NCBI GenBank assembly: GCA_021804785.1
Contig: JAJZGY010000018.1
Span: 1-41,946 of the forward strand
Source: Pseudomonadota bacterium
GTDB lineage: Bacteria > Pseudomonadota > Alphaproteobacteria > Micropepsales > Micropepsaceae
DNA: 41,946 nucleotides
Reading direction: 5' to 3'
Every line of letters starts with the position of its first letter. Position 1 is the first letter of the stretch. The notes beneath the pieces were generated by a model. The model searched no databases and was not told where the DNA came from. It worked only from the letters and a program-made list of their open reading frames with translations. A program made the translations under genes and the position numbers. Shown here one piece after another: positions 23,011-41,946 of this stretch.

Positions 23011-23505
23011 TCAACGGCCTCGTCACTTGAGCCTCGGTTGCTCGATTGCACAGGCGGTTGAGACGCGCAATGGGGCGGAGGATCTGCGACATTGCGTTGG
23101 CTTGGTACGCGACCAGGCTCTCGGGTTCTGGGCCGGGCGCGATGATTAAATGATTTTCAGGCCTGTCGGCGCCAATTGCGTGTCTGCGGGAGCCACGGTC
23201 GACGCGCCTGGGGCTCCGGGCGGGATCTATGTGCTTGAGCTTGGTCAGCGGACGCTTGGCCTTCCGGCGAAAGCCGGAATTTCCCTAATCTCGTAGGGTT
23301 ATTGCTCCGCACCGGCGCCCTGAGCGAGGTTCCCTACAGATCGGTATTTTGCGCCGCGGGATGAACCTATATATACCGCCCCCTAGGACCTGACGCTTTC
23401 GGGATACACCGCGCCGCGACCAGCTGGCGTTCTCGGTGCGTGGCTGGTTGACCTCGCTTGACTTATCAGCAGTGTGAGCGGCTGCGATTCCCGACGGATA
23501 TTCGG
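23011..23505. other. Intergenic region between the DUF969 unit and hpnN
   Basis: A 495-bp divergent spacer with no supported gene. It holds a perfect GAAA-tetraloop hairpin: TTCCGGC (23262-23268) with GCCGGAA (23273-23279). Directly after comes a second one: CCCTA (23283-23287) with TAGGG (23294-23298). The first looks like the REP-type palindromes common between proteobacterial genes. The only strongly AT-rich spot is TATATATA at 23368-23375. No tRNA fold was found. Confidence 0.5.
23349..23377 (+). promoter_or_regulatory. Candidate hpnN promoter
   Basis: TTGCGC (23349-23354) and TATACC (23372-23377) are spaced by 17 nt, the latter inside a TATATATA tract that stands out in GC-rich DNA. It lies about 120 nt before the hpnN start. 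TATATATA reads the same on both strands, so it could instead serve the divergent DUF969 unit. Confidence 0.3.
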
Positions 23506-27955: not shown

Positions 27956-28873
27956 TTAGCTTTCCCGTTCAAGCAGAAATCTTGGCAGCGCCACCAGGCC
28001 TTGGGCAGCTGTGCCGTACGGGTGCAGGAGGCTGACGGCATGGTCTGCGAGTTCGGTCGCCTTGGTTCTTGCGGCGGCCACGCCCCACAGCGAGACGAGC
28101 GTCGCCTTGCCTGCGGCGGCGTCCTTTCTGACCGCTTTACCGGTTTTATCCGCGGTCGAAAGCACATCCAGAAGATCATCGGTGATCTGAAAGATCAGTC
28201 CGATGTCGCGAGCATATTCGCGCAGCCGCAACACCTCGGCCGCGTTCGCCTGACCGAGTATGGCACCGGCTATGCAACAAAATTCGAAAAGGGCACCTGT
28301 CTTCATCTGCTGCAGCAAGATGATCTCGTCGGCGCCGAAAGTCCGTTGTGCTGCCAGCATGTCGACCATCTGTCCCCCGATCATCCCGTCGCGTCCTCCA
28401 GCCTTAGCCAGCTCTTCGACCAGCCTGCAGCGCACACTTGAGTCCGGATGTGTGGCCTCTGCGGCCAGGATCTCGAAGGCGACGGTCAAAAGGGCATCAC
28501 CTGCGAGCACGGCGGTCGCCTCATCGAAGGCGCGATGGGTGGTGGGGCGGCCACGGCGCAGATCATCATCATCCATGCAGGGAAGATCGTCGTGAACCAG
28601 GGAGTAGGTATGCAGGCATTCGATGGCGGCACCAACCCGCAGGGCGCGGGCAGAGTCTACCGCGAACAGCTTGGCGCTCTGGCTGACGAGGAAGGGGCGC
28701 AGGCGCTTTCCGCCAGCGAAGAGAGCGTAGCGCATGGCGTCGTGAATGCGGCCATGCAGAGCCTGCGAGGCCGGCACCAGGCGTTCCATCTCACCTTCCA
28801 CCGCCTGAGATGCCGCCTTGAGGAGCTGCAAAATATCGATGGACGCACTTGCGCCCCCGTCTACACCCGTCAT
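27956..28873 (-). CDS. ispA: Farnesyl diphosphate synthase
   Basis: A 305-residue trans-prenyltransferase that condenses IPP with DMAPP and then GPP to give FPP, the precursor of squalene. The first aspartate-rich motif DDLPCMDDDD is at residues 95-104, preceded by HTYSLVH (Tyr90 five residues before it, as in FPP synthases such as E. coli IspA). The second, TDDLLD, is at 231-236, and GGKRLRP at 54-60 binds IPP. It points away from hpnH on the opposite strand. A partner xseB upstream, common elsewhere, is not seen here. Confidence 0.93.
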   Translation of the reverse strand: MTGVDGGASASIDILQLLKAASQAVEGEMERLVPASQALHGRIHDAMRYALFAGGKRLRPFLVSQSAKLFAVDSARALRVGAAIECLHTYSLVHDDLPCMDDDDLRRGRPTTHRAFDEATAVLAGDALLTVAFEILAAEATHPDSSVRCRLVEELAKAGGRDGMIGGQMVDMLAAQRTFGADEIILLQQMKTGALFEFCCIAGAILGQANAAEVLRLREYARDIGLIFQITDDLLDVLSTADKTGKAVRKDAAAGKATLVSLWGVAAARTKATELADHAVSLLHPYGTAAQGLVALPRFLLERES

Positions 28874-29662: not shown

Positions 29663-30823
29663 ATGGAGCGTTCAGTGCCGATCCCGTTTAAGCAGGCTGC
29701 CCGTATTGGGGCCTATGTCGCAAAGCAGCATGTAATGGGCCGCAAGCGCTATCCACTGGTGCTGATGCTGGAGCCTCTGTTTCGCTGCAATCTGGCCTGT
29801 GCAGGCTGCGGTAAGATCGATTACCCCGACGACATACTTAATCAACGCCTGTCGTACGACGAGTGCATGCAGGCGATTGACGAATGCGGAGCGCCAGCGG
29901 TGTCAATTGCAGGCGGAGAGCCGCTCTTGCATCGCGAGATGCCGCAAATCGTCAAAGGCTATATCGCGCGCAAGAAATTCGTCATCCTGTGCACCAATGC
30001 CCTGCTTCTGGCCAAGAAGATCGATCAGTATCAGCCGCACCCCAATTTTACCTGGTCGATACACCTCGATGGCGACAAGGCGATGCACGACAAGTCCGTG
30101 TGTCAGGATGGCACCTATGAGAAGGCGGTTGCAGCGATCAAGCTGGCCAAACAAAAGGGTTTCCGGGTGCAGATCAACTGCACGCTCTTCAACGACGCCG
30201 ACCCTGAGCGCACCGCGAATTTCTTCGATAACGTGATGGCGATGGGCGTGGACGGGATTACCGTTTCGCCTGGCTATGCCTATGAGCGCGCCCCAGATCA
30301 ACAGCACTTCCTCAATCGCGAACGCACGCGCAACCTCTTCCGTGACATCCTGCGTCGCGGTGACGGCGGCAAGAAGTGGGACTTTACCCAGTCGGATCTC
30401 TTCCTCGATTTCCTGGCTGGCAATCAGACCTATGAATGCTCGCCCTGGTCGATGCCGCTGCGCTGCGTGTTCGGTTGGCAGAAGCCCTGTTATCTGCTTG
30501 GCGAAGGCTATGTGAAGACCTTCAAAGAGCTGATGGAAGATACTGACTGGGACAAATACGGCGTCGGAAACTACGAGAAATGCGCCAACTGTATGGTTCA
30601 TTGCGGGTTTGAGGGCACTGCTGTGGCTGACTCTGTCAGGCATCCCTGGAAGCTGGTGGGGTTACACCGCAACGGCGTGCGTACAGATGGGCCAATGGCG
30701 CCAGATATCGATCTGTCGCACCAGCGCCCGGCCGAATATGTTTTCTCGCGCCATGTCGAACACAAGCTAACCGAGATAAGGGCAAGCAAACCCGACACCA
30801 AGAAGGCGCAGGCTGCGGAATAG
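29663..30823 (+). CDS. hpnH: HpnH, radical SAM adenosylhopane synthase
   Basis: A 386-residue radical SAM enzyme that joins the 5'-deoxyadenosyl group to diploptene, forming adenosylhopane, the first C35 hopanoid. The cluster motif CNLACAGC has Cys42, Cys46 and Cys49. GKIDYPDDILNQRLS, VSIAGGEPLLHREM and IHLDGDKAMHDKSV are family hallmarks, and later cysteines lie in ECSPWSMPLRCVFGWQKPC and CANCMVHCGFEG. A GTG at 29675 with GGAG 6 nt upstream would give MPIPFKQAARIGAYV, closer to usual HpnH N-termini, and may be the true start. Its 3' end overlaps hpnG on the other strand by 57 bp. Confidence 0.94.
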   Translation: MERSVPIPFKQAARIGAYVAKQHVMGRKRYPLVLMLEPLFRCNLACAGCGKIDYPDDILNQRLSYDECMQAIDECGAPAVSIAGGEPLLHREMPQIVKGYIARKKFVILCTNALLLAKKIDQYQPHPNFTWSIHLDGDKAMHDKSVCQDGTYEKAVAAIKLAKQKGFRVQINCTLFNDADPERTANFFDNVMAMGVDGITVSPGYAYERAPDQQHFLNRERTRNLFRDILRRGDGGKKWDFTQSDLFLDFLAGNQTYECSPWSMPLRCVFGWQKPCYLLGEGYVKTFKELMEDTDWDKYGVGNYEKCANCMVHCGFEGTAVADSVRHPWKLVGLHRNGVRTDGPMAPDIDLSHQRPAEYVFSRHVEHKLTEIRASKPDTKKAQAAE

Positions 30824-31435
30824 GCTGGAGAAGGCAGTTTGCGCCCGCCAGCCAGTGGCGACAAGCTCGCCGAGCTGTTTGGGCTCGCGCGTGAGCGCCA
30901 TGAGCACACGCGGCAATGACACCTTGCCCTCGCGCGTCATGGCCACATGCACAGCTGGTGGCAGGCGATGCTGGGCACCGTCTGCAATCACTCTGAGCGC
31001 ACAAAACGGTAGCCCATGGCGGGCTGCCAAATGAGCGGCAATATGAGATTCGAGGTCGACGGCGAGCGCTCCCGTCGCCGCTCGTAACTGCGCCTTCTGT
31101 GCCGGAAGCCCAACGATGCGATCGCTGCCTGTAAGCGGGCCTTCGACGACCGCGAGCCGGTCGCGCACCGCAGCACGCCATTGCTCGTCGCAGTCGAAGC
31201 GCACGCCTGAAGTCATGATCGTGGTGGCAAGAATCACGCTGCCTGGAGCAAGTGCAGGATCAAGCCCGCCGCATAGACCTGCAGACAGAATGGCGCGGCC
31301 GCCGCGTTTTATCGCGGCCTCAAGATCTGCAGCGAGAGCATGATTATCTCCGCCCCCGGACAGGACGATTGTACAGTCCGCGCCGAAGCATTTGGCTTCG
31401 CGCCGCATTCCGCTCACGGCAACAAGACCTGTCAT
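30767..31435 (-). CDS. hpnG: HpnG, adenosylhopane nucleosidase/phosphorylase
   Basis: A 222-residue protein of the nucleoside-phosphorylase fold, acting after HpnH to release adenine from adenosylhopane and give ribosylhopane. Seen are VAVSGMRREAKCF at the N-terminus, SAGLCGGLDPALAPGSVILA, ALAVDLESHIAAHLAARHGLPFCALRVIADGA (the MES-like catalytic segment, here LES) and the C-terminal family tail. Its ATG overlaps the shc stop by 4 bp, so it is the last gene of the hopanoid run. The last 57 bp are antisense to the hpnH 3' end. Confidence 0.9.
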   Translation of the reverse strand: MTGLVAVSGMRREAKCFGADCTIVLSGGGDNHALAADLEAAIKRGGRAILSAGLCGGLDPALAPGSVILATTIMTSGVRFDCDEQWRAAVRDRLAVVEGPLTGSDRIVGLPAQKAQLRAATGALAVDLESHIAAHLAARHGLPFCALRVIADGAQHRLPPAVHVAMTREGKVSLPRVLMALTREPKQLGELVATGWRAQTAFSSLFRSLRLLGVGFACPYLG

Positions 31436-33381
31436 AGACCGAACGCGACAGCACGGGTGTTGGAGGTACGCAAATTACGATAGCGGGCAAGCGCCCAAAG
31501 CGGGAAAAACTTCGGATAGCCGTGATAGCGCAGATAGAAGACACGGGGAAATCCGCCACCTGTGTAATGGTCCTGATCCCACAGGCCATCGGAGTTCTGG
31601 CTGGCTCGCAGATATTCGATGCCGCGTGCGACTGATGGATGATCCACCTGGCCGGCAGCCATCAGGCCGAGGAGCGCCCACGCCGTTTGGGAAGCGGTGG
31701 ATGGCGCTCGCTCATAACCCTGATAATCAAGCCTGTAGCTGTTGCAGTCTTCGCCCCAGCCGCCGTCTTCGTTCTGGATAGCGATGAGCCAGTCAGCCGC
31801 CTTCTTTAGCATCGGGTGCTCGGGCGCAATGCCGGCAGCGTTCAGGCCACATAAGGCTGACCAAGTGCCATAGATGTAATTCACACCCCAGCGCCCGAAC
31901 CAGCTGCCATCCTCGAGCTGGGTCCGCGCCAGATAATCGATCGCCTGCTTCATTCTGGAACTGTCTTTGGGCTCACCAAGCTGCGCCAGCATTCCAAGGC
32001 AGCGCCCGGTAACGTCCTCGGTCGGGGGGTCGAGCAGGGCGCCATGATCCGCAAAGGGAATATTGTTGAGGTAATGATAGGTGTTGTCGGCGTCGAAGGC
32101 GGCAAAGCCACCGTTGCGACTTTGCAGGCCAACAATCCATTCCGCGCCGCGAGCAATGGCCTCGGGTGCCTCCGGATCTGGCGCAATCGCATGCTGGGCG
32201 CGCTCGAGGGCCATGACCACGACGGCAGTATCATCAAGATCGACGTAATGGGGATTGTTATACTGAAATGCCCAGCCGCCCGGTCGTACATTGGGGCGCC
32301 ACTCGGCCCAGTCACCTTTCACCTCAAGGACCTGCAGGGGTTTGAGCCAGTCGAGGCCTCGGCGGACCGCGGCCAGAGCCGCATCTGCACTGGCCTCCAT
32401 GAGGGCATGGCAGGTGAGTGCGGTGTCCCAGACCGGGGAGACACAAGGCTGGCAATAGGCTTCGTCTTCCTTGATCACCAACAGATTTTCTACCGACTTG
32501 CGCGCGATTGCACGGTCGGGATGGACGGGTGGATAGCCTAGGCAGTCAAACATTATGACGCTGTTGGCCATTGCCGGATAGATGGCGCCAAGACCATCCT
32601 CGCCATTGAGGCGCTCGTGAACGAAGTTCCGGCACGCCTCGATGGCTCGTCGACGCAGCCTTTTTGGCCAGATCGGTTCGAGGCTTTTGAGGATAACGTC
32701 TAGTATGCCGAAAAACGCTGCCCAGTATGGATTTTGATGGACGGAACGCGATTGCGCCCTGCTGCCTTTGGGCAGAAATAGTTCCGGCACGTGCACACCG
32801 CGCGGATTTTTTGCCATGGGCTTTTCGGATTGCAGTACCAGGAGAGGTACGATGACGGTGCGTGCCCAATAGCTCATCTTGGACAGGTGAATCGGAAACC
32901 AGCGCGGCAGAAGGATCAGTTCGGCGGGGACGCTCGGTGTGTCCTGCCATGAACATTCGCCATAGAGCGCAAGCTGGATGCGGGTGAAGACATTGGCTTT
33001 GCGCGCGCCGCCTGCATCGAGGATGGCCTGGCGGGCGCGGCGCATATGTGGCGCGTCAGGATCATCACCGATCATCTTCAGAGCAAAGTAGGCCTTGATG
33101 GTGGCCGAGAGGTCGAAGACCCCGTCATGAAAGAGCGGCCAGCCGCCATGATGCGACGACTGAATGCGTCGCAGGTAATTGCCAATCTTGCGCTCAAGCT
33201 CAAGATTGGCATCCTCGCCGAGATAATGGACGAGCAGGATGTATTCGGCCGGAATGGTGGCATCGGCCTCGAGCTCATAAACCCAGTGCCCGTCCGGTCT
33301 TTGATCCTTGAGCAGCGCCGCGGTGGCCGCGCCGATCGCCTGCTCCAGCGCCTGCGGTTCCACGCTCATGATCCTGTCCAT
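31432..33381 (-). CDS. shc: Squalene-hopene cyclase
   Basis: A 649-residue triterpene cyclase (also called hpnF) that turns squalene into hopene/hopanol at the inner membrane. The catalytic DXDDTA motif is present as DLDDTA near residue 380. Several QW repeats are visible: NGGFAAFDADN, DGSWFGRWGVNYIYGTWSA, DGGWGEDC and DGLWDQDHYTGGGFPRVFYL. The C-terminus YLRYHGYPKFFPLWALARYR is typical. The ATG is preceded by GGAG. A 76-bp gap separates it from hpnE upstream, the largest break in an otherwise overlapping series except around the ferritin-like gene. Confidence 0.97.
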   Translation of the reverse strand: MDRIMSVEPQALEQAIGAATAALLKDQRPDGHWVYELEADATIPAEYILLVHYLGEDANLELERKIGNYLRRIQSSHHGGWPLFHDGVFDLSATIKAYFALKMIGDDPDAPHMRRARQAILDAGGARKANVFTRIQLALYGECSWQDTPSVPAELILLPRWFPIHLSKMSYWARTVIVPLLVLQSEKPMAKNPRGVHVPELFLPKGSRAQSRSVHQNPYWAAFFGILDVILKSLEPIWPKRLRRRAIEACRNFVHERLNGEDGLGAIYPAMANSVIMFDCLGYPPVHPDRAIARKSVENLLVIKEDEAYCQPCVSPVWDTALTCHALMEASADAALAAVRRGLDWLKPLQVLEVKGDWAEWRPNVRPGGWAFQYNNPHYVDLDDTAVVVMALERAQHAIAPDPEAPEAIARGAEWIVGLQSRNGGFAAFDADNTYHYLNNIPFADHGALLDPPTEDVTGRCLGMLAQLGEPKDSSRMKQAIDYLARTQLEDGSWFGRWGVNYIYGTWSALCGLNAAGIAPEHPMLKKAADWLIAIQNEDGGWGEDCNSYRLDYQGYERAPSTASQTAWALLGLMAAGQVDHPSVARGIEYLRASQNSDGLWDQDHYTGGGFPRVFYLRYHGYPKFFPLWALARYRNLRTSNTRAVAFGL

Positions 33382-33457: not shown

Positions 33458-34708
33458 TTACGTAGCGCCCAAGCTAAGCTCCGCTGCGGTTTCGCCCGAA
33501 CGCAGCGCGCCTTCTATCGTCGCCGGTAGCCCGGTCTGGACCCAGTCCCCAGCGAGAACAAGGTTACGCCAGGGTGTGATTGGCCCGGGACGCCGGCTGT
33601 CCTCCTCAGGGGTGGCGGCGAAGGTCGCTCTGCGCTCCTTGACGATCTGCCAGCGCGGTAGAGGTCCGGTCAAGTTGTGCGCCGCGGCGACCTCTGCCCA
33701 CAGCTGGCGCGCCAGACTCTCACGATCCTCATCGAGCAATCGGTCGGCACCAGACACCGTGACCGAGAGGCGGTCGGAGAAGGCAAAAATCCATTCGGCG
33801 ACACCACCGATCACCCCGATGATGGGCTCGGCACCCGCTGGCGCGGGCTGCGCGAAGTGACCATTGACGATGGCCCGAAATCCCTTGGGTCCGTCGATCT
33901 GAGGAACCAGGTCGGTTGCCACCCAGGCGGGCACCGCTAGCACGAGCCCGTCATTTGGCCCCAGCGCGATGCTCTGACCCGCAAGTTCAAGGCCGACGAC
34001 GCGGGCATCAGCGAACAGGAGTTTTCGCACACGCTTGCCCAGAATCACATCGGCCGCGTGCTGCGCCAGAAAGCTGAGTGCCGGCGCCACGAAGGCATCG
34101 GCCAGATGGGGTGAGGCAATGCGCGGACAATACGCCCGCCCACCCTTGAACAGGGTTTGACGGATCACGGCCTGAGCCAGTCTTGCGGACGCCGTGCGCG
34201 GATCGGTGTTGAGGGCTGCGAGCAGGATCGGAGCCAGTAGCTTGTCCCACAACGGGCCATTACACGAGATCACGTTTTCGACTCGTGCATCGTCTTTGGC
34301 GCTGAAAAGCTTCAGGATCGCGAGATATTCGCCAAGCTGCGTGCCTGGTACGCGACGGTCCGGCGCCAGGATCCACCAAGCCAGCGGGCCGTCATTGGGA
34401 CGGATGATCCAGCGGGTGCCATTAGTGGCATCGAAGAAGGCAAAGCGCGCATGCTCTGGCCCCTTCAGCTGGGCGTGAGCGCCGATCTTCTGCACATAGC
34501 GGTTGACGGCAGGATTGCCGGAGAGAACGAGATGATTGCCATTGTCGATGACCTGGTCCAGCGCAGCGTCGAAGTAAGAACGACAGCGCCCGCCCGCCTG
34601 ATTGGTGCCTTCGATCAGCGTTACCCTGGCCCCACGCGCAACGAGGTTCACAGCGGCGCTGAGGCCGGCGAGCCCTGCGCCGATGATATAGATGCGTCCC
34701 GAGCTCAT
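33458..34708 (-). CDS. hpnE: HpnE, hydroxysqualene dehydroxylase
   Basis: A 416-residue FAD-dependent amine-oxidase-fold protein that reduces hydroxysqualene to squalene, the last of the HpnD-HpnC-HpnE steps. The N-terminal dinucleotide motif GAGLAGLSAA starts at residue 10, and IEGTNQAGGRCRS follows. The C-terminal NLVLAGDWVQTGLPATIEGALRSGETAA is the conserved FAD-binding closing motif of this family. The ATG overlaps the hpnD stop by 4 bp. Phytoene-desaturase-like relatives share the fold; context decides in favour of HpnE. Confidence 0.93.
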   Translation of the reverse strand: MSSGRIYIIGAGLAGLSAAVNLVARGARVTLIEGTNQAGGRCRSYFDAALDQVIDNGNHLVLSGNPAVNRYVQKIGAHAQLKGPEHARFAFFDATNGTRWIIRPNDGPLAWWILAPDRRVPGTQLGEYLAILKLFSAKDDARVENVISCNGPLWDKLLAPILLAALNTDPRTASARLAQAVIRQTLFKGGRAYCPRIASPHLADAFVAPALSFLAQHAADVILGKRVRKLLFADARVVGLELAGQSIALGPNDGLVLAVPAWVATDLVPQIDGPKGFRAIVNGHFAQPAPAGAEPIIGVIGGVAEWIFAFSDRLSVTVSGADRLLDEDRESLARQLWAEVAAAHNLTGPLPRWQIVKERRATFAATPEEDSRRPGPITPWRNLVLAGDWVQTGLPATIEGALRSGETAAELSLGAT

Positions 34709-35565
34709 CTGCCCAGCCCATTGGCAAGGACAATCTGCGCCAGCTTGAGCTTGGACAGGGACACGCGATGGCGCGGCGCTCGCCAGCCCGTATGCTCCAT
34801 CTCGGACAATATCTGGGAATAGACGGCACCCATCAGACGGGGCGTTGCGATGCGTCCCTTGGGTTTTGACGCCATCAGGTGATGTGCCTTGGCATAATGG
34901 CGATGGGCGAGGGCGGCCAGCTGGTGGCAGGCGTCGTCCAGGCGGGCGTCGCTCAGCACTGTTGCCGGATCGCGGCTCGTGATGCCGGCGGCTGCAAGAA
35001 ATTCATGTGGCAGATAGAGCCGGCCGATCTGGGCATCCTCATCAAGGTCGCGCAGAATATTGGTGAGCTGCAGCGCCCGTCCCAGATCGTGCGCAAGGGA
35101 AAACCCCGCGTCTTCGTTCATGCCGAAAATCTTGATTGAGAGCCGTCCGACGGCACTGGCAACGCGATCGCAGTATAGATCGAGCACGGCCAGCTCTGGC
35201 GCCACAATGTCTTCGCGCACGTCCATTTCCATGCCGTCAATCACGGCGAGAAAATCCTCAAGGCGCAGGGCGAAGTCGTGCACCGGCTGAACCAGGTAGG
35301 AAAGGTATGATGGGGGCTTGCCGGCGTAAAGGCTGGCAAGGTCCGTGCGCCATGAGTCCAGGGCGGTCTGCCGCTCGCTGCGTGTGCCAAGCCCGTCATC
35401 GGCGATGTCATCGACCGCACGACAAAAAGCATAGATGGCAAACATCGCCTCGCGCTGTACCGTGGGCATCAGACGCATGGCGAGATAAAAGGAACTCTTG
35501 GCTGCCTTCTGTTGGACCGGCGGCGCCACGGCAGCTCGTATCTCTTCTTGCATCGTTGCGCTCAT
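34705..35565 (-). CDS. hpnD: HpnD, presqualene diphosphate synthase
   Basis: A 286-residue trans-isoprenyl diphosphate synthase that joins two FPP into presqualene diphosphate. It carries two aspartate-rich Mg-binding motifs, DDIADD at residues 52-57 and NILRDLDEDAQIGRLYLP around 165-185, and the START segment SSFYLAMRLMP. Its start overlaps the hpnC stop by 4 bp and its end overlaps hpnE, so the squalene-forming trio is one coupled unit. It is distinguished from HpnC by the canonical second motif RDLDED. Confidence 0.94.
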   Translation of the reverse strand: MSATMQEEIRAAVAPPVQQKAAKSSFYLAMRLMPTVQREAMFAIYAFCRAVDDIADDGLGTRSERQTALDSWRTDLASLYAGKPPSYLSYLVQPVHDFALRLEDFLAVIDGMEMDVREDIVAPELAVLDLYCDRVASAVGRLSIKIFGMNEDAGFSLAHDLGRALQLTNILRDLDEDAQIGRLYLPHEFLAAAGITSRDPATVLSDARLDDACHQLAALAHRHYAKAHHLMASKPKGRIATPRLMGAVYSQILSEMEHTGWRAPRHRVSLSKLKLAQIVLANGLGR

Positions 35566-36440
35566 TGCCGTGTCCGCGCCAATTGCAAGGAACTACGGCT
35601 CAAGCGCTGGGCAGCGAAGCGCAGGCCTGTGCCAAGGACAAGCGGTACGAGCTCCAGCTTGGTGTGATGCACCCGTTCGCTCAAGGGATCCTTGCGCAGC
35701 AGTTTGGCGGTCAGATCTTGGGCAAATTCCTGGATCATCGCAACTTCGAAGGCCAGCCAAGGATCGCGGATCTGGTTCGAAAAGGGTTTGGCATGGGCGA
35801 GCAGCTGGCTGGTGCGCCGTGCCAAAGATTTGATTACCCGTTCCAGTGCGGGAGTTGCCCGCGGTTCCATCAAGGCTTCCGGCCCGATACCTTCGGCCCA
35901 TAATGCTTCCATCGGGATATAGACGCGATCGAGCTTCTGGTGATCTTTTTTGCAGTCCTGCAGGTGATTGATCACTTGCAGCGCCGCGCAAAGCGCATCA
36001 TTGGCAGGCCAGGTGCCGACGTCCTCGCCATGTACATCCAGTACGAAGCGACCAACCGGCATGGCGGAATAGCGGCAGTAATCCATCAGTGCGTTCCAGT
36101 CCCGGTAGCGCAGCTGCGTCACGTCGCGGCGGAAGGCCTCGAGCAGATCAAGTCCGTGCTGGAGCGATAGTCCCTGGGCAGTGGCGACCTCCCGCAGCCG
36201 AACAGCTTGGGCAATAGTCTTTTTTTCACCCAGAAGGCTGGCGCGGAATTCCTCAAGCAGCCTGAGTTTGTCATCGGCCGGGGCGGAGGGGTGATCGGCC
36301 ACGTCGTCGGCGGCGCGGGCAAACGCATAGAATGCATGAATGGCCGGACGGTGACGCCTGCGGATCAGTGCCGAGGCGACGGGAAAATTCTCGTCCCCCG
36401 ATCCCTTTCCGGACTGAAGTTCGGCTGCCGTAATGCTCAT
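35562..36440 (-). CDS. hpnC: HpnC, hydroxysqualene synthase
   Basis: A 292-residue squalene/phytoene-synthase-fold protein that converts presqualene diphosphate to hydroxysqualene. The first motif is DDVADH; the second is variant, HLQDCKKDHQKLDRVYIP, as is usual for HpnC. DENFPVASALIRRRHRPAIHAFYAFARAADD is the diagnostic N-terminal stretch. The ATG at 36440 was chosen because it overlaps the hpnB stop as ATGA and gives the normal N-terminus; the frame stays open 123 nt further into hpnB. Confidence 0.93.
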   Translation of the reverse strand: MSITAAELQSGKGSGDENFPVASALIRRRHRPAIHAFYAFARAADDVADHPSAPADDKLRLLEEFRASLLGEKKTIAQAVRLREVATAQGLSLQHGLDLLEAFRRDVTQLRYRDWNALMDYCRYSAMPVGRFVLDVHGEDVGTWPANDALCAALQVINHLQDCKKDHQKLDRVYIPMEALWAEGIGPEALMEPRATPALERVIKSLARRTSQLLAHAKPFSNQIRDPWLAFEVAMIQEFAQDLTAKLLRKDPLSERVHHTKLELVPLVLGTGLRFAAQRLSRSSLQLARTRQ

Positions 36441-37591
36441 GACTGTCCCATTGCCTGGGGCCGACCTTTCCACATGCCGCCCCGCCCCCGCCAGTGCTGG
36501 AGCGCGGAATCGAGGGTGAAGAGGGCATATAGAAGACCGATCGCCGGCAGGGCCAGCCCCCATAGCGGCGTGCGGCCGTAAAAGCGCAACATCGGCCGGA
36601 AGGATGCGGTCATCAGCCCATAGGCCGCGGCTGCCGCCAACCAGCTTCCGTCTGGTGCAAGCAGCATGTAGACCGGCGGGCTCAGGAACATCAGGCAGAG
36701 TCCGAGGAAGGTGCCGAGGAGCAACAGTGGATTGAAGCGGAGCTGGGCATAGGCCGAGCGAGCGACCATACGGCGGATTTCGCCCATATGCCGATAGGGG
36801 CGGATGGACTTTGCCCGCTCGGTCAGCCCCAACCAGATCGGGCCATGGGGCTTCATGAGCCGGCCCATGGCGCAGTCATCGATGATCTCGCCCCGAATAG
36901 CCTCGATGCCACCGGCGGCCTCCAGCGCAGAGCGCCGGACCAGCATACAACCACCTGCCGCTGCCGCCATTTTTTTACGAACACTGTTTACCCAACTGAA
37001 CGGATAAAGCATTGCGAAGAAATAAACGAAGGCAGGGATAAAGAACCGTTCTGGCCACGTCGTGCAGTGCAGCTTTGCCATGAGCGAGGTCAACACAAGA
37101 CCGTCGGCCTCGGCGCGGCGGACGAGTTCTGCCAGATTGTCCGGAGTATGGCGGATATCGGCGTCGGTCAGCCAGAGATAGTCGCTCGGCTCCTTGGCCG
37201 CCTCGAGCACGCCCTGGTGAACGGCCCATAATTTACCGGTCCACCCGGAGGGGCGTGGGTTTCCGGCGAGCACGCGCAGGCGTGCTTCATTGCCAAGGGC
37301 ACCGGCCTGAGCACGCGTTCCGTCGCTGCTTTCATCGTCGACCAGCAGAATACGGAAGCGGCCTGCGTAGGTCTGCGCTAGAAGGCTCGACAGCGTGGTT
37401 GCAATCACATCCGCTTCATTGCGCGCCGGCACGATTGCAGTCACCGAGGGCCAGCTGGTCGGTTCGGCATTGGGGACGTGGCGGTCGTCGCGCTCCTGAG
37501 CCTGCCAGAACAGGCCGCGAAACAGCAACAGGTAAAGCCAGATCACCAGCGGCAGAGCGCCAAATACCACATCGCGAAAGGCGAGCCACAT
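36437..37591 (-). CDS. hpnB: HpnB, hopanoid-associated glycosyltransferase (GT2)
   Basis: A 384-residue membrane-associated GT-A glycosyltransferase. An N-terminal hydrophobic helix (VVFGALPLVIWLYLLLF) is followed by SVTAIVPARNEADVI, LLVDDESSDGT and LTDADIRH (the metal-binding Asp motif), then a C-terminal pair of membrane segments. It belongs to the family regularly placed next to hpnA in hopanoid loci; its exact acceptor is unproven. The start is the ATG within TGATG overlapping the hpnA stop; a GTG one codon earlier is possible. It overlaps hpnC by 4 bp. Confidence 0.88.
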   Translation of the reverse strand: MWLAFRDVVFGALPLVIWLYLLLFRGLFWQAQERDDRHVPNAEPTSWPSVTAIVPARNEADVIATTLSSLLAQTYAGRFRILLVDDESSDGTRAQAGALGNEARLRVLAGNPRPSGWTGKLWAVHQGVLEAAKEPSDYLWLTDADIRHTPDNLAELVRRAEADGLVLTSLMAKLHCTTWPERFFIPAFVYFFAMLYPFSWVNSVRKKMAAAAGGCMLVRRSALEAAGGIEAIRGEIIDDCAMGRLMKPHGPIWLGLTERAKSIRPYRHMGEIRRMVARSAYAQLRFNPLLLLGTFLGLCLMFLSPPVYMLLAPDGSWLAAAAAYGLMTASFRPMLRFYGRTPLWGLALPAIGLLYALFTLDSALQHWRGRGGMWKGRPQAMGQS

Positions 37592-38580
37592 CACGACAGA
37601 TATCCTTCGGCTTCAAACCAGCCTAGCGCATCGCGCAAAGCCTCTGCATAGGGGCGTGCGCGATAACCGAGCTGCTCTGTCGCCTTGGCCGAAGAAAAAA
37701 ACATGTGATGGCGTGACATGGCGAGCGCATCACGCGTAACGAACGGTTCCTTGCCGCTCAGTCCGGCTGCGATTTCCGCCATCAGGGCCAAGGGATACAG
37801 CGGGAGCCTGGGCAGGCGGATTGCCGGAGCCCTTTTGCCCGTCAGCCGGGCGATTTCTGCGAGCATCTGCCTTAGCGTCGCGTTTTGGCCACCGAGTATG
37901 TAGGTCTCGCCGATGCGGCCATGGGCGCGGGCCAGCAGATGGCCTGCGGCAACATCATCGACGTGAACCAGGTTGAGGCCGGTGTCCACGAACGCCGGAA
38001 TGCGTCCGCGGGCTGCTTCCACAATGATGCGTCCGGTCGGTGTCGGACGGACATCGCGGGGGCCAACGGGCGTCGACGGACTGACAAGCACAATCGGCAA
38101 GCCTTGCTGGACGTAGTCCTCGACGATGCGCTCGGCCACCACCTTGCTCTTCTTGTAGGCACCGATGGCGGTGTCGAAGGAGGCGCGATCTCGCTCATCG
38201 GCATCGCCACCATCGCTGTGCGGCTTCAGCGTTGCCACCGAGGAGGTGTATACGATCCGCCGAACGCCAGCTTGTTTGGCTGCCTCCAGCACATTGCGCG
38301 TGCCTTCACGGTTATTGGCGATGATCTCCGCGGGATTACGCGCCCACAGACGATAATCGGCGGCGACATGAAAAAGGTCGTCGCAGCCATCCATCGCCCG
38401 GCATAGCGATGCCGGGTCCCGTAGATCTCCGAGCGCAACCTCGCAACCCAACCCCTGCAGGTTGGTTTTGGGGCTGGAGGGACGGGCGAGGGCCCGGACC
38501 TCCTCGCCCTGCGCGAGCAATGCCCGCAGGACTGCTGAGCCGACAAAGCCGGAGGCACCGGTGACAAGGACGCGGCTCAT
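37591..38580 (-). CDS. hpnA: HpnA, hopanoid-associated sugar epimerase
   Basis: A 329-residue extended short-chain dehydrogenase (NAD-dependent epimerase/dehydratase). The NAD site VTGASGFVGSAVLRAL is at residues ~6-21. The catalytic YxxxK is present as YKKSK, with the upstream VYTSSVATL serine region. HVAADYRLWARNP and NREGTRNVLEAA are typical of the HpnA subgroup. It probably modifies a sugar-nucleotide or the hopanoid headgroup together with HpnB; no reaction is proven. The ATG overlaps the hpnL stop by 4 bp. Confidence 0.9.
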   Translation of the reverse strand: MSRVLVTGASGFVGSAVLRALLAQGEEVRALARPSSPKTNLQGLGCEVALGDLRDPASLCRAMDGCDDLFHVAADYRLWARNPAEIIANNREGTRNVLEAAKQAGVRRIVYTSSVATLKPHSDGGDADERDRASFDTAIGAYKKSKVVAERIVEDYVQQGLPIVLVSPSTPVGPRDVRPTPTGRIIVEAARGRIPAFVDTGLNLVHVDDVAAGHLLARAHGRIGETYILGGQNATLRQMLAEIARLTGKRAPAIRLPRLPLYPLALMAEIAAGLSGKEPFVTRDALAMSRHHMFFSSAKATEQLGYRARPYAEALRDALGWFEAEGYLS

Positions 38581-39572
38581 CCTTGCACCTTGGCCTGCCG
38601 TTCCGCACGCAAGCGCGCTGCAAAGCTGCCTTCAGACAGCTGCCAACCCAGCAGGATCGGTGCACCGTCGGCTATCTGCTGAGCCCGGCGCAGCAGCGAC
38701 AGCGCAACCCCGATTTGGGCGGGCACCCCGAACAGTGGCATCAGGACGGCGTACCCGGCTTCCTGCACGCCGATGGCGTTGGGCACGAACACGGCGGCGC
38801 TGCGCAAAGCGCACATCAGTCCTTCGATGCCCAGCGCGTCTGCTAACACCACATGCCAGCCCATCAGTCTGAGTGCGAGCCAGGTGAAGAGGGCTGTTCC
38901 AACCCATCCTGCAAAATGGATGCAAAAGCTTGCGACCATGCGGCGGGGCTGGGCGTGAACCTGGCCAATAAGACGATGGATGTCGCCGGCATAGGGGGCG
39001 GCCTTGGGTAAAAAGCGGGTCGCGATACGTTCCAGGACATCGAAGCCGCGACGCTGGGCAACGATGAAGCCGCCGGCGCCCAAAACACCGAGCGCGATGG
39101 CCACGGAAGCAGCCTCGAGGATGTCGAGCTGGCGTCCGTTGGGGGGCAAGGTGATGACGAGGATGAGAATGCCGCAGATTATGAAGCAGATCTGCGCGAC
39201 CATCTCGAGCGTGACATCCACGGCCATTGTGGCCAGCGCATTGGCGATCGGTAGCCCGCGCAGGCTGGCGGCACGGGCACCGATCAGCATCCCGCCCAGC
39301 TGTGAGAACGGCAGCACGTCACCGGCCGAATCGCGCACCGCACGCCCCCAGACGAACGTGACCAGCCGTCGCGCATGGTGGGGAGGAACGATCAGGTACC
39401 AGGCGGTTCCCAGCAGCATGAAATTCGCTAATGCGAACACGCACAAACCCCCAAAGCCGGTCCAGCCGACATGCTCGACGGCGTGCCAGATTGCCTCAAA
39501 TCCGACAAAGGCAATGAGGTAGCCAGCACCCGCAAGGCCGGCCAGCGCAGCAAGAATGACGCTGAGTTTCAC
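38577..39572 (-). CDS. hpnL: HpnL, hopanoid-associated membrane protein (LPG-synthase TM fold)
   Basis: A 331-residue polytopic membrane protein of the lysylphosphatidylglycerol synthase transmembrane-domain / UPF0104 family. About eight hydrophobic stretches are visible, from SVILAALAGLAGAGYLIAFV onward. The motifs FSQLGGMLIGARAASLRGLP and AAVFVPNAIGVQEAGYAVLM are typical. The proposed role in the family is lipid flipping or export; for HpnL this is inference. It starts with GTG (39572-39570), supported by GAGGAG upstream. It lies 31 bp after the ferritin-like gene and overlaps hpnA. Confidence 0.87.
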   Translation of the reverse strand: MKLSVILAALAGLAGAGYLIAFVGFEAIWHAVEHVGWTGFGGLCVFALANFMLLGTAWYLIVPPHHARRLVTFVWGRAVRDSAGDVLPFSQLGGMLIGARAASLRGLPIANALATMAVDVTLEMVAQICFIICGILILVITLPPNGRQLDILEAASVAIALGVLGAGGFIVAQRRGFDVLERIATRFLPKAAPYAGDIHRLIGQVHAQPRRMVASFCIHFAGWVGTALFTWLALRLMGWHVVLADALGIEGLMCALRSAAVFVPNAIGVQEAGYAVLMPLFGVPAQIGVALSLLRRAQQIADGAPILLGWQLSEGSFAARLRAERQAKVQG

Positions 39573-39603
39573 GCTGTCTCCTCAAGGCTGGACCTGGTTA
39601 TGC

Positions 39604-40503
39604 TCACGCTCTACTTACTCCGCGCAGCACGCGCTGCCAGAGGCGTACCGCTCTGGGCACAAGGCGCGGACGCAACAGGCGTGGATCATATGCGCCCAGT
39701 CTCTTGTCGTTTTCAGCCAGGCACAACTCCATCAGTTCCTGCACCGAAACCTCTGCCCCGAGATCCTTTGCGCCCGTCACGGTAAAGTTGTTGTCTTGGC
39801 CATTGGCCAGGTTATTGCCGAGGCTGATCCGTTCGTAGATCAGAAACGCCCACACCGCCATGATTTTGAGTGCAAACCATGGCCGCCGCCAAGCGGGCAT
39901 ATTGCGCCGATGCCAGGCCACCCAGTTGACGAAGAACAGGATATGGCGCCCCTCCTCGCGCATAACCGGTTCGAAGGCGTCCACGAGTGCGGGGGGAAAA
40001 AATCCGGAGCGCTTGGCCAGTTCGAACAGGCCGAAGGCAAAGAAGCTGTCAATGCATTCGCTGTAGCCGGTGACCATGAAGGCCCATTCCGGATCGCGTG
40101 GCGTCACATAGTCAGGCTCGGGGGCCAGGCGGATGCCGTAGGCCTCGACCATGTTGTGCAGCACATGCTTGTGCCGCTTCTCTTCGTAGGCATTGAGCTC
40201 GATCGCCCGCCGCAGCAAGGGGTCCCGTACCGTTTCACCATAGGACGCGACCCGCAAGCCGGCCTTTCCCTCGGTCTGCACGGCAATGTCCCAGATCGGC
40301 AGCGAGATAATCTTGCGCTGCGTGGCAGCCGACAGCCGGGGCCATTCCATGAGGGCCGGTCGATAGGGATCAAAGGTTGCCAACAGCGTATGGCAGAACA
40401 AATTCTTGTGCGCGTCGCTGCCCAGCCGGATGGGGCCTGGGCCGGGGGGATTGCCCGCGTTGAGGGTGAGAGAAGCGGGTATATCGAGGGAAACAGCTCC
40501 CAT
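39604..40503 (-). CDS. Ferritin-like di-iron domain protein within the hopanoid operon
   Basis: A 299-residue protein with a ferritin-like four-helix pattern and a full set of candidate di-iron ligands: Glu78, Glu107/108 with His111 in AYEEKRHKHV, Glu149 or Asp152 in YSECIDSF, and Glu183/184 with His187 in REEGRHILFF. The two ExxH motifs on separate helices are what ferritin-like oxidases and hydroxylases use. The C-terminal part has one hydrophobic helix (WFALKIMAVWAFLIY), so it may sit on the membrane. AAGGTG lies about 6 nt before the ATG. It lies between hpnK (116 bp) and hpnL (31 bp), same strand, so it is expected to act on hopanoids or protect the radical SAM steps. No characterised homologue is known to me. 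Confidence 0.75.
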   Translation of the reverse strand: MGAVSLDIPASLTLNAGNPPGPGPIRLGSDAHKNLFCHTLLATFDPYRPALMEWPRLSAATQRKIISLPIWDIAVQTEGKAGLRVASYGETVRDPLLRRAIELNAYEEKRHKHVLHNMVEAYGIRLAPEPDYVTPRDPEWAFMVTGYSECIDSFFAFGLFELAKRSGFFPPALVDAFEPVMREEGRHILFFVNWVAWHRRNMPAWRRPWFALKIMAVWAFLIYERISLGNNLANGQDNNFTVTGAKDLGAEVSVQELMELCLAENDKRLGAYDPRLLRPRLVPRAVRLWQRVLRGVSRA

Positions 40504-40619
40504 GAGGTCACCTTTTGCGTCCGCTGATAAGTCGGCATGCCCAATCCGGCTGCCGTGCTACGAGTATATCCGATCGTTTTGCACGGATGAAAAGAGACGA
40601 AAGGGCGCGGGGTTGCGCA

Positions 40620-41459
40620 CTAAAAATCGACGAAGCCGCCCCGCCTGATGCTGGGATGTGCGGCCAGCCGGCCAACCTCCTCATCACAAAGTGCCGCCAG
40701 CTCTTCGGCATAGGCGTAGCCCTCTGCTGCACCAAAAAAGCCGCCGCGTGTGGCTGGGTGCAGGTAGATTTCGCTCAACCCCTCCGGTAGATGGGCCAGG
40801 AGCCCGGCAAGGCGTGTGCGTGTCATCGCCCCTGACCAGGCAAGGCCAAAGACATGGTCAGGAGTCAAAAGGCCCGCCCGGGCGATCCGGCCACGCATGA
40901 GTTTGGCCCAGGGCGCCGTCACCCACGCCGGTGATGGTGGCAGCTGACCTGGCTCCGCGGCAGCCAGCACCTGGCGGGGCTCCTGCGGCACGCGCATCGC
41001 CCGCATGCCGTAACGCTTTCCGATCTTGAGGATCAGCGTCGTGATGGTGGGATGCAGATGAAAATGCTTGTGGGTGTTGACGTGATCAAGCCGTAAGCCA
41101 CAGCTGCGGAAGGCTTCAAACTGGGCCGCGATCTCGTGGGCCAGCTGGCGGCGTACCCCGGGGCGCAGAAACATTTCCGCACCAACCACCGCCATGTCGG
41201 TTCGGAACCAGCCATTGCGATCGACCAGATCTGGTATCGCCGCCTGCGGCAACATGGGCTTGCCCTCGACAAGAACGATATGCAGCCCGACCCGCAGCTG
41301 GGGCATGCGGCGCGCGCGTGCAACCGCATCGGCGACGAAAGGAGCGCCCACCATCAGGCTCGCTGCCGACAGAACGCCATGGCAATGAGCGCGCTCGACC
41401 GCCTCGTTCACCTCCCAAGCGGCGCCGAAATCATCGGCATTGACTATGAGGCCCTTCAT
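40620..41459 (-). CDS. hpnK: HpnK, hopanoid N-acetylglucosamine deacetylase (YdjC/ChbG family)
   Basis: A 279-residue carbohydrate deacetylase. The family metal site is visible: NADDFG with Asp9/Asp10, His60 in VGLHIVLVEGKP, and His126/His130 in LDHVNTHKHFHLHP. The C-terminal LPEGLSEIYLHPATR carries the last conserved His. HpnK removes the acetyl group from N-acetylglucosaminyl-bacteriohopanetetrol made by HpnI, giving glucosaminyl-BHT, the substrate of HpnJ. It lies 23 bp after hpnJ. HpnI itself is not in the window. Confidence 0.92.
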   Translation of the reverse strand: MKGLIVNADDFGAAWEVNEAVERAHCHGVLSAASLMVGAPFVADAVARARRMPQLRVGLHIVLVEGKPMLPQAAIPDLVDRNGWFRTDMAVVGAEMFLRPGVRRQLAHEIAAQFEAFRSCGLRLDHVNTHKHFHLHPTITTLILKIGKRYGMRAMRVPQEPRQVLAAAEPGQLPPSPAWVTAPWAKLMRGRIARAGLLTPDHVFGLAWSGAMTRTRLAGLLAHLPEGLSEIYLHPATRGGFFGAAEGYAYAEELAALCDEEVGRLAAHPSIRRGGFVDF

Positions 41460-41482: not shown

Positions 41483-41946
41483 TCACGCTGCGTGGCGCCG
41501 TTCGCGCAGGAACTGGAAGAACTCCACACCTTCGCGCAGACGGCGCTTCATCATGTCCGTGGAACGCACCATCTCACCAACAATTGCGGCGATTTTGGTC
41601 GGCCGGAAATAGAACTGTCTGTAGAAGTCTTCCAGCGAGTCAAAAATCTGCTTGTGGCTGAGGTGCGGATAATGCAGCGGCGCGATCTGAATGCCATGCT
41701 CATCCACCAGTTCTGCATTGGCGGCATCAAGCCAGCCATTCTGTACGGCCTGATTGTAGAGATAGGTACCTGGATAGGGTGCGGCCAGCGAGACCTGAAT
41801 GGTGTGCGGATTGATGCGCTTGGCGAACTCGACGGTCTCCCGAATGGTATCGGTGGTTTCGCCCGGAAGACCAAGGATAAAGGTGCCGTGAATTGTGATC
41901 CCCAGATCATGACAGTCCTTGGTGAAGCGTTCGGCGACTTCGATGC
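41483..41946 (-). CDS. hpnJ: HpnJ, radical SAM BHT cyclitol ether synthase, C-terminal part (cut by window edge)
   Basis: The frame is open from the right edge to the TGA at 41483, about 153 residues. It begins IEVAERFTKDCHDLGITIHG, then FILGLPGETTDTIRETVEFA, IQVSLAAPYPGTYLYNQA, and ends FFQFLRERRHAA. LGLPGET is the late radical SAM barrel motif, and APYPGTxLY plus the helical tail match HpnJ, which contracts the glucosamine ring of glucosaminyl-BHT to the cyclitol ether. The cluster-binding CxxxCxxC lies off the edge. It is the first visible gene of the hpnJ-to-hpnG run. Gene identity also rests on its place next to hpnK. Confidence 0.88.
   Translation of the reverse strand, partial: IEVAERFTKDCHDLGITIHGTFILGLPGETTDTIRETVEFAKRINPHTIQVSLAAPYPGTYLYNQAVQNGWLDAANAELVDEHGIQIAPLHYPHLSHKQIFDSLEDFYRQFYFRPTKIAAIVGEMVRSTDMMKRRLREGVEFFQFLRERRHAA

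Follow-up and report, generated by a model that had tools for sequence, protein, structure and literature searches.

A conserved ferritin-like di-metal protein encoded in hopanoid gene clusters, a candidate hydroxylase of the bacteriohopane side chain

Introduction

Hopanoids, the sterol-like lipids of bacteria, are widely used as lipid fossils. How many hydroxyl groups their side chain bears is read as a marker of their source. The extra hydroxyl of pentols adjoins the tetrol, since the Rohmer method converts tetrol derivatives to C32 hopanol and pentol derivatives to C31 hopanol (PMC5462960). A survey of alphaproteobacterial hopanoids from November 2025 gives the percentage of pentol plus hexol for 54 strains, 19 of them above 1%; it states that the genes for pentol and hexol formation are unknown and that its authors found no candidate near the hpn clusters (PMC12583986). 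The word "ferritin" does not occur in the main text of that survey of hpn clusters, and among the matches listed in the open-licence hopanoid literature (title and start of abstract) none describes the gene reported here, which we call FER.

By fold, the closest described systems are the R2-like ligand-binding oxidases (R2lox) and the R2 subunits of ribonucleotide reductase. R2lox binds a lipid (PMC6399176), and alkane hydroxylation by one R2lox and two-electron oxidations by an R2lox have been reported (PMC10867098). By location, the closest are the known hpn genes themselves, which share loci and genomes with FER but are covered by NCBIfam models, none of which matches it.

An unnamed gene within a hopanoid run

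The window analysed here is a stretch of 41,946 nucleotides. Its FER gene is an open reading frame of 299 amino acids with an ATG start, running from 40503 to 39604 on the minus strand (ORF listing), 116 bp from hpnK and 31 bp from hpnL. A first, sequence-only reading of the window had placed it between these two genes on the same strand, and so it lies. With NCBIfam naming, the minus-strand order is hpnJ-K-FER-L-A-B-C-D-E-shc-G, with hpnH convergent. Two types of the gene, FER1 and FER2, are distinguished below; the window holds FER1, and the FER2 paralogue is absent from it. The features are as follows.

41483-41944, minus strand: hpnJ, 3' part, running off the window (TIGR03471 positions 322-471, 239.2 bits)
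40620-41459, minus strand: hpnK, upstream neighbour (TIGR03473, 363.8 bits, cut-off 232.6)
39604-40503, minus strand: FER1, ferritin-like di-metal protein, candidate bacteriohopane side-chain (C-31) hydroxylase (ORF, conservation, model, co-occurrence)
38577-39572, minus strand: hpnL, downstream neighbour (TIGR03476, 253.1 bits, cut-off 195.65)
37591-38580, minus strand: hpnA (TIGR03466)
36437-37594, minus strand: hpnB (TIGR03469)
35562-36563, minus strand: hpnC, start probably internal (TIGR03464)
34705-35565, minus strand: hpnD (TIGR03465)
33458-34708, minus strand: hpnE (TIGR03467)
31432-33381, minus strand: squalene-hopene cyclase (TIGR01507)
30767-31435, minus strand: hpnG (TIGR03468, 190.7 bits, cut-off 187.1)
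29663-30823, plus strand: hpnH, convergent to hpnG (TIGR03470)
27956-28873, minus strand: farnesyl diphosphate synthase
23458-26127, plus strand: hpnN, hopanoid transporter (TIGR03480, 963.8 bits, cut-off 751.85)

The hpnJ score falls below the whole-protein cut-off because the gene is partial. The hpnC frame as listed overlaps hpnB by about 127 bp, and its true start is probably internal since the family match covers it only from residue 54 onward. The convergent 3' ends of hpnH (plus) and hpnG (minus) overlap by 57 bp (30767-30823), and a comparable overlap occurs at an acetobacteraceal locus (L218) and a sphingomonad locus (L228). Near hpnH, genes for precursor supply (farnesyl diphosphate synthase) and for transport (hpnN) also lie close to the hopanoid run. 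An antisense frame of 323 amino acids (39556-40527, plus strand) overlaps FER, and we found no support for it as a gene.

Conserved ligands and predicted fold

The motifs named in the sequence-only reading, two ExxH pairs (E108xxH111 and E184xxH187) and two further acids (E78 and E149), are present and near-invariant among relatives. In a set of 38 members from the window's genus and other families, with the fragmentary rows L074 and L075 left out, E78, E107/E108, H111, E149, C150, E183/E184 and H187 are conserved in 38/38. The same residues are conserved in 53/53 rows of a second set except H111 and C150, at 52/53 each. The codons of the putative ligands are the following.

40270-40272, minus strand: codon of E78, predicted helix 71-89 (38/38 and 53/53 rows)
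40171-40182, minus strand: codons of E108-x-x-H111, predicted helix 95-122 (E108 38/38 and 53/53; H111 38/38 and 52/53)
40057-40059, minus strand: codon of E149, predicted helix 138-166 (38/38 and 53/53 rows)
39943-39954, minus strand: codons of E184-x-x-H187, predicted helix 171-201 (row conservation)

The sole row with Gln in place of H111 is L153:4098-4931, and the sole row with Ala in place of C150 is L122:7507-8341, from the Myxococcales MAG SURF_8.

Known profiles describe this protein poorly. No NCBIfam model matches FER at E values up to 1. The Pfam models for rubrerythrin (PF02915, 16.6 bits, gathering cut-off 22.8) and AurF (PF11583, 13.2 bits, cut-off 29.6) share common ferritin-like motifs with FER1 but score below their curated cut-offs; comparison with profiles, proposed earlier as a check on the di-iron assignment, assigns FER1 to no family. 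A sequence search of solved structures returned FER matches only at E 0.4-1.2, namely a small GTPase by chance and an R2lox through a non-significant alignment of EEGRHI in FER1 with DEGRHI. An alignment search of the same kind gave three non-significant matches, the best of which (2fzf, E 0.39) spans a ferritin-like E...EExxH stretch.

An AlphaFold2 model of FER1 built with 53 sequences (pLDDT 85.7, pTM 0.85) distributes E78, E108/H111, E149 and E184/H187 over four long helices in succession, and further helices come after the bundle. The model thus has the features of a ferritin-like di-metal protein, a four-helix bundle carrying E/ExxH/E/ExxH with one contribution per helix. The earlier proposal of a di-iron protein is upheld as far as a ferritin-like di-metal protein goes; the ligands would lie on four helices of a confidently predicted bundle, their convergence being judged by helix positions alone. 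The model of a FER2 (locus L110; pLDDT 87.5, pTM 0.86) is similar, with R2 and R2lox as its best matches.

In a Foldseek search of the PDB, the first 14 matches to FER1 were all R2lox chains (probability 1.00, TM 0.38-0.51, 12-16% identity), followed by ribonucleotide reductase R2; with a best E value of 2e-3 and none below 0.001, these are weak matches. A second aligner scored an R2lox at Z 15.0 (213 residues aligned at rmsd 3.8), in effect a tie with several R2 proteins at Z of 14 or more. Because the best Z is typically 14 for a reference set of five mostly helical models that lack any clear match, these scores indicate fold class and not kinship. R2 itself belongs to the same fold class (Z about 14), but its radical tyrosine, which we take to lie four residues after the first His, corresponds to L115 in FER1, invariant in 53/53 rows. 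R2lox, for example GK2771 of Geobacillus kaustophilus, shares with FER1 the order E/ExxH/E/ExxH and a distance of 35 residues from the third-helix Glu to the fourth-helix Glu, but its Val-Tyr cross-link pair (V72/Y162 in G. kaustophilus) corresponds by spacing to A81/V144 in FER1 (PMC10867098). As both the cross-link pair and the radical tyrosine are missing, FER1 appears R2-like in fold and a member of neither the R2lox nor the R2 family. The distribution of the FER family also follows hopanoid makers, unlike that of R2lox.

Co-occurrence with the hopanoid pathway

FER is a real, conserved and unnamed gene that follows the hopanoid pathway. Of 61 genomes searched first (37 from the window's genus, its own genome included), 33 have a FER match, which in some cases is a fragment. 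When 387 alphaproteobacterial genomes were sampled evenly across the class, 31 had FER matches, of which 29 are strong; the two marginal matches (G375 and G183, E about 1e-3), both in genomes below the HpnH cut-off, were dropped. HpnH passes its cut-off in 98 of the 387 genomes and in all 29 strong carriers (Fisher p 1e-19; counting the marginal matches raises it to 4e-17; relatedness is ignored in both). The family is therefore not scattered without link to hopanoid genomes, the outcome that would have told against the sequence-only reading. Of the 98 HpnH-positive genomes, 69 are without FER. We also considered FER as the enzyme converting ribosylhopane to bacteriohopanetetrol (BHT) and rejected this, as predicted BHT makers without FER are common (those same 69 genomes).

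Within the Acetobacteraceae, FER is found in 74 of 140 genomes, and 121 of the 140 pass the HpnH cut-off; 72 of the 74 carriers are HpnH-positive (all but G752 and G777), and FER is missing from 49 of the 121 HpnH-positive genomes. The family of Sphingomonas formosensis has FER in 3 of 149 genomes and hpnH in 15, with all three FER carriers HpnH-positive. A scan of a larger collection returned at least 523 relatives, from which 80 loci were kept; among these 80 are representatives of Sphingomonas, Nevskia, Dyella, Burkholderia, Paraburkholderia and Cupriavidus. The carrier genomes of 35 of these 80 loci (of at least 523 relatives) were searched for HpnH, and 34 pass, the single exception being the Myxococcales MAG SURF_8 (L122), with no HpnH over the cut-off.

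Neighbouring genes

The proposed position beside hpnK and hpnL recurs at other loci. At 20 loci among the genomes searched first, the window's included, hpnK lies upstream in 16 and hpnL downstream in 18, and at 10 of the 20 a second FER gene stands between FER1 and hpnL. At the 80 scan loci kept from at least 523 relatives, neighbours were detected by BLAST with the window's hpn proteins within 1.5 kb: 52 of the 80 have an hpn gene at that distance. Upstream of FER and in its orientation, hpnJ or hpnK is present at 37, and 25 of these also have hpnL downstream. The remaining 28 of the 80 have no hpn gene within 1.5 kb, and 17 of them are from Burkholderiaceae. FER has hpn neighbours in Alpha-, Beta- and Gammaproteobacteria, including a single FER-hpnB-hpnA-hpnH cluster in Cupriavidus; in Burkholderia it lies away from hpnJ and hpnK, and in 18 stretches from Acetobacteraceae neither gene was detected next to FER. 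A hpnH-A-B-FER-D-shc cluster occurs on a contig labelled Mycobacteriaceae (L123), a label that may be wrong since this FER groups with Cupriavidus in our tree.

Among the sphingomonads, S. formosensis and G725 have FER between hpnK and hpnL; G602 has it after hpnK, and hpnL was not detected within the G602 stretch examined. Six otherwise syntenic sphingomonad hpnJ-K-L clusters have no FER (G605, G667, G617, G695, G706 and G711). As hpnJ-K-L is kept with or without it, FER looks like an optional tailoring step of the hopanoid pathway and not like a guard of its enzymes.

A conserved non-hopanoid partner, such as an electron donor or a hydratase, was sought in 34 stretches that came from the genus of the window and from other families. 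None was found, the recurrent neighbours being lineage-specific. The ten recurrent neighbours that were annotated gave clpP, alanine dehydrogenase, cbiN, a LysR regulator, SCO1, Cox11, an NMT1-like protein, a nitronate-monooxygenase-like protein, or nothing. In Burkholderiaceae, 17 of 19 loci (L104, L130, L135 and 14 others) have a member of one cluster of open reading frames upstream of FER in the same orientation, and the one member scanned is FMN-reductase-like (PF03358). This gene may be an electron donor, or it may just reflect synteny.

Comparison with bacteriohopanepentol and -hexol makers

Where a FER genotype and a lipid phenotype can be set side by side for a species, they agree in all four cases. 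Kozakia baliensis DSM 14400, with 29% pentol plus hexol (PMC12583986), carries FER1 and FER2 in tandem (G747, assigned by an identical plasmid). S. formosensis CC-Nfb-2, with 23% (PMC12583986), carries FER1 adjoining hpnK. A pentol cyclitol ether has been reported from Burkholderia cenocepacia K56-2 (PMC8560942), and another strain of this species has FER at 61% identity. On the negative side, Beijerinckia indica is listed at 0% pentol plus hexol (PMC12583986), and B. indica ATCC 9039 (G504, assigned by an identical plasmid), which is not the survey's strain, is HpnH-positive and FER-negative. Rhizomicrobium palustre is listed with only 1% (PMC12583986).

At higher rank, 9 of 10 strains of Acetobacteraceae are pentol-positive, and of 19 producers in the Hyphomicrobiales, 18 are at 0% pentol plus hexol and one at 1% (PMC12583986). 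FER is present in 72 of 121 HpnH-positive Acetobacteraceae genomes versus 0 of 24 HpnH-positive genomes in the order of Rhodoblastus (centre excluded), so that the contrast in phenotype agrees with the distribution of the gene. This contrast is not absolute. Rhodoblastus, which we take to belong to the Hyphomicrobiales, has FER in strain 17X3 itself, and its family has FER in 2 of 55 HpnH-positive genomes (centre excluded). Three further FER loci carry labels of Hyphomicrobiales type, namely Hyphomicrobiales bacterium (L114), Rhizobiales bacterium dw_265 (L115) and Rhizobium sp. Q54 (L156, a MAG); these labels may mismatch the sample taxonomy, since the tree places all three with the window's genus.

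The sphingomonads fit poorly. Six of eight BHPD-making sphingomonads make pentols (PMC12583986), versus FER in 2 of 14 HpnH-positive genomes of the S. formosensis family, centre excluded (p 0.008, relatedness ignored). The mismatch may be one of sampling, because the family sample holds genera absent from the survey table; one of its FER-less members is a Polymorphobacter, such a genus. A second route to pentols in sphingomonads is possible as well.

Proposed function and alternatives

The sequence-only reading had offered three functions for FER, namely hopanoid hydroxylase, hopanoid desaturase, and oxygen or iron guard. The first fits best, and we propose that FER1 is an R2-like ferritin-fold di-metal oxygenase that hydroxylates C-31, converting BHT to the pentol, with FER2 acting on C-30 to give hexols; we give this reading a probability of roughly 0.6. 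FER1 would take O2 and two external electrons and would hydroxylate the bacteriohopane side chain at C-31, the CH2 that adjoins the tetrol, its substrate being bacteriohopanetetrol, either free or as the glucosamine or cyclitol ether. The following hydroxyl, at C-30, would come from FER2, whose gene often adjoins that of FER1. Attack on an unactivated side-chain CH2 of a lipid is chemically plausible for a di-metal oxygenase of R2-like fold. We infer the function, the substrate and the hydroxyl positions, with C-31 and C-30 as the most likely targets, and likewise the identity of the metal, the electron donor and the oxygenase chemistry. As a gene for a step whose genes are stated to be unknown, FER is a strong candidate.

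The alternative that survives best, though we consider it unlikely, is an O2-dependent desaturase, with FER as the source of the double bonds in the hopanoid rings (delta-6 and delta-11). Di-metal enzymes of the ferritin fold include desaturases, and two of the species compared above have FER together with both modifications: Kozakia, with 56% unsaturated hopanoids (PMC12583986), and B. cenocepacia, with bacteriohop-6-ene forms (PMC8560942). The survey also counts the genes for hopanoid desaturation, in the sections used here, as unknown, but it proposes another candidate for this step, a sterol-desaturase family protein (PMC12583986). The two modifications come apart in other strains, and they do so in favour of hydroxylation. 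S. formosensis, with its FER and 23% pentol plus hexol, has 1% unsaturated BHPDs, and Afipia broomeae has 43% unsaturated forms and 0% pentol (PMC12583986); the order of the latter has FER in 0 of 24 HpnH-positive genomes, centre excluded.

Somewhat less likely again is a role at the head group, with FER modifying the glucosamine or cyclitol or carrying out some other oxidation close to the step of HpnK/HpnJ. Such a role would suit the 37 of 80 scan loci (of at least 523 relatives) at which hpnJ or hpnK lies within 1.5 kb upstream, in the orientation of FER. The 18 Acetobacteraceae stretches with neither gene detected by FER, the separate location in Burkholderia and the sphingomonad hpnJ-K-L clusters without FER all speak against it, and the survey, in the part used here, shows no head-group variant with the taxonomic pattern of FER (PMC12583986).

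A third reading, to which we attach a smaller chance than to either of these, keeps the pentol as product and has FER make the oxidised intermediate of a two-step route, from BHT to a 32-oxo compound that is then hydrated. Oxidation and hydration are favoured by the survey's authors, who cite a 32-oxo compound in Zymomonas (PMC12583986), and the two-electron oxidations reported for an R2lox (PMC10867098) lend it some chemistry. Against it, the 34 stretches with their ten annotated neighbours show no recurrent, lineage-spanning non-hpn gene beside FER; direct hydroxylation needs one enzyme per hydroxyl, which matches the one or two FER genes observed.

The idea that FER shields the radical-SAM enzymes HpnH and HpnJ from oxygen or supplies them with iron, in a rubrerythrin- or ferritin-like role, has in its favour the sub-threshold rubrerythrin match and the position beside hpnJ/hpnK, but it is very improbable given that FER is missing from 69 of 98 HpnH-positive genomes, that hpnJ-hpnK-hpnL is kept in six syntenic sphingomonad clusters from which FER is absent, so that the cyclitol-ether genes do not need FER, and that the nearest folds to the model are R2-like, with more helices after the predicted bundle.

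A diverged paralogue and possible sequential hydroxylation

The hydroxylase reading gives a role to FER2 as well. In a quick tree of 156 rows with midpoint root (127 FER1 and 29 FER2), the FER2 rows form one group apart from the FER1 rows (SH-aLRT 100), with two changes on the tree because one row (L093_8814) missed its motif label. FER2 is an anciently diverged paralogue of FER1. Each of the 29 typed FER2 rows belongs to a genome with FER1 as well, a count that is biased for the scan loci because these were found through FER1; in the 387-genome class sample, searched with both types, 8 of 8 FER2 genomes also have FER1. Two or more FER matches are found in 22 of the 74 Acetobacteraceae carriers, six of which were typed as FER2 holders. 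Among the rows typed, FER2 thus occurs only alongside FER1, a one-way dependence of the kind to be expected if the hydroxylations were sequential.

Taken together, FER1 and FER2 may form a new R2-like branch of di-metal lipid hydroxylases, acting at C-31 and then at C-30 and supplying the missing pentol and hexol genes, a wider claim to which we would give even odds. The family offers a concrete and testable gene candidate, with one predicted hydroxylation per paralogue. If the hydroxylase reading is correct, pentol and hexol production would become predictable from genomes, and FER1 and FER2 could serve as genetic markers for the sources of pentol and hexol biomarker lipids. The step would then need O2, with a bearing on how old sediments are read, and a lipid-modifying branch of R2/ferritin-like proteins would gain a physiological role.

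The tree also contains a divergent subtype on the FER1 side (L072:9500-10411 and L073:6585-7466, the FER genes of G114 and G287; SH-aLRT 98), which forms the first branch within the FER1 group.
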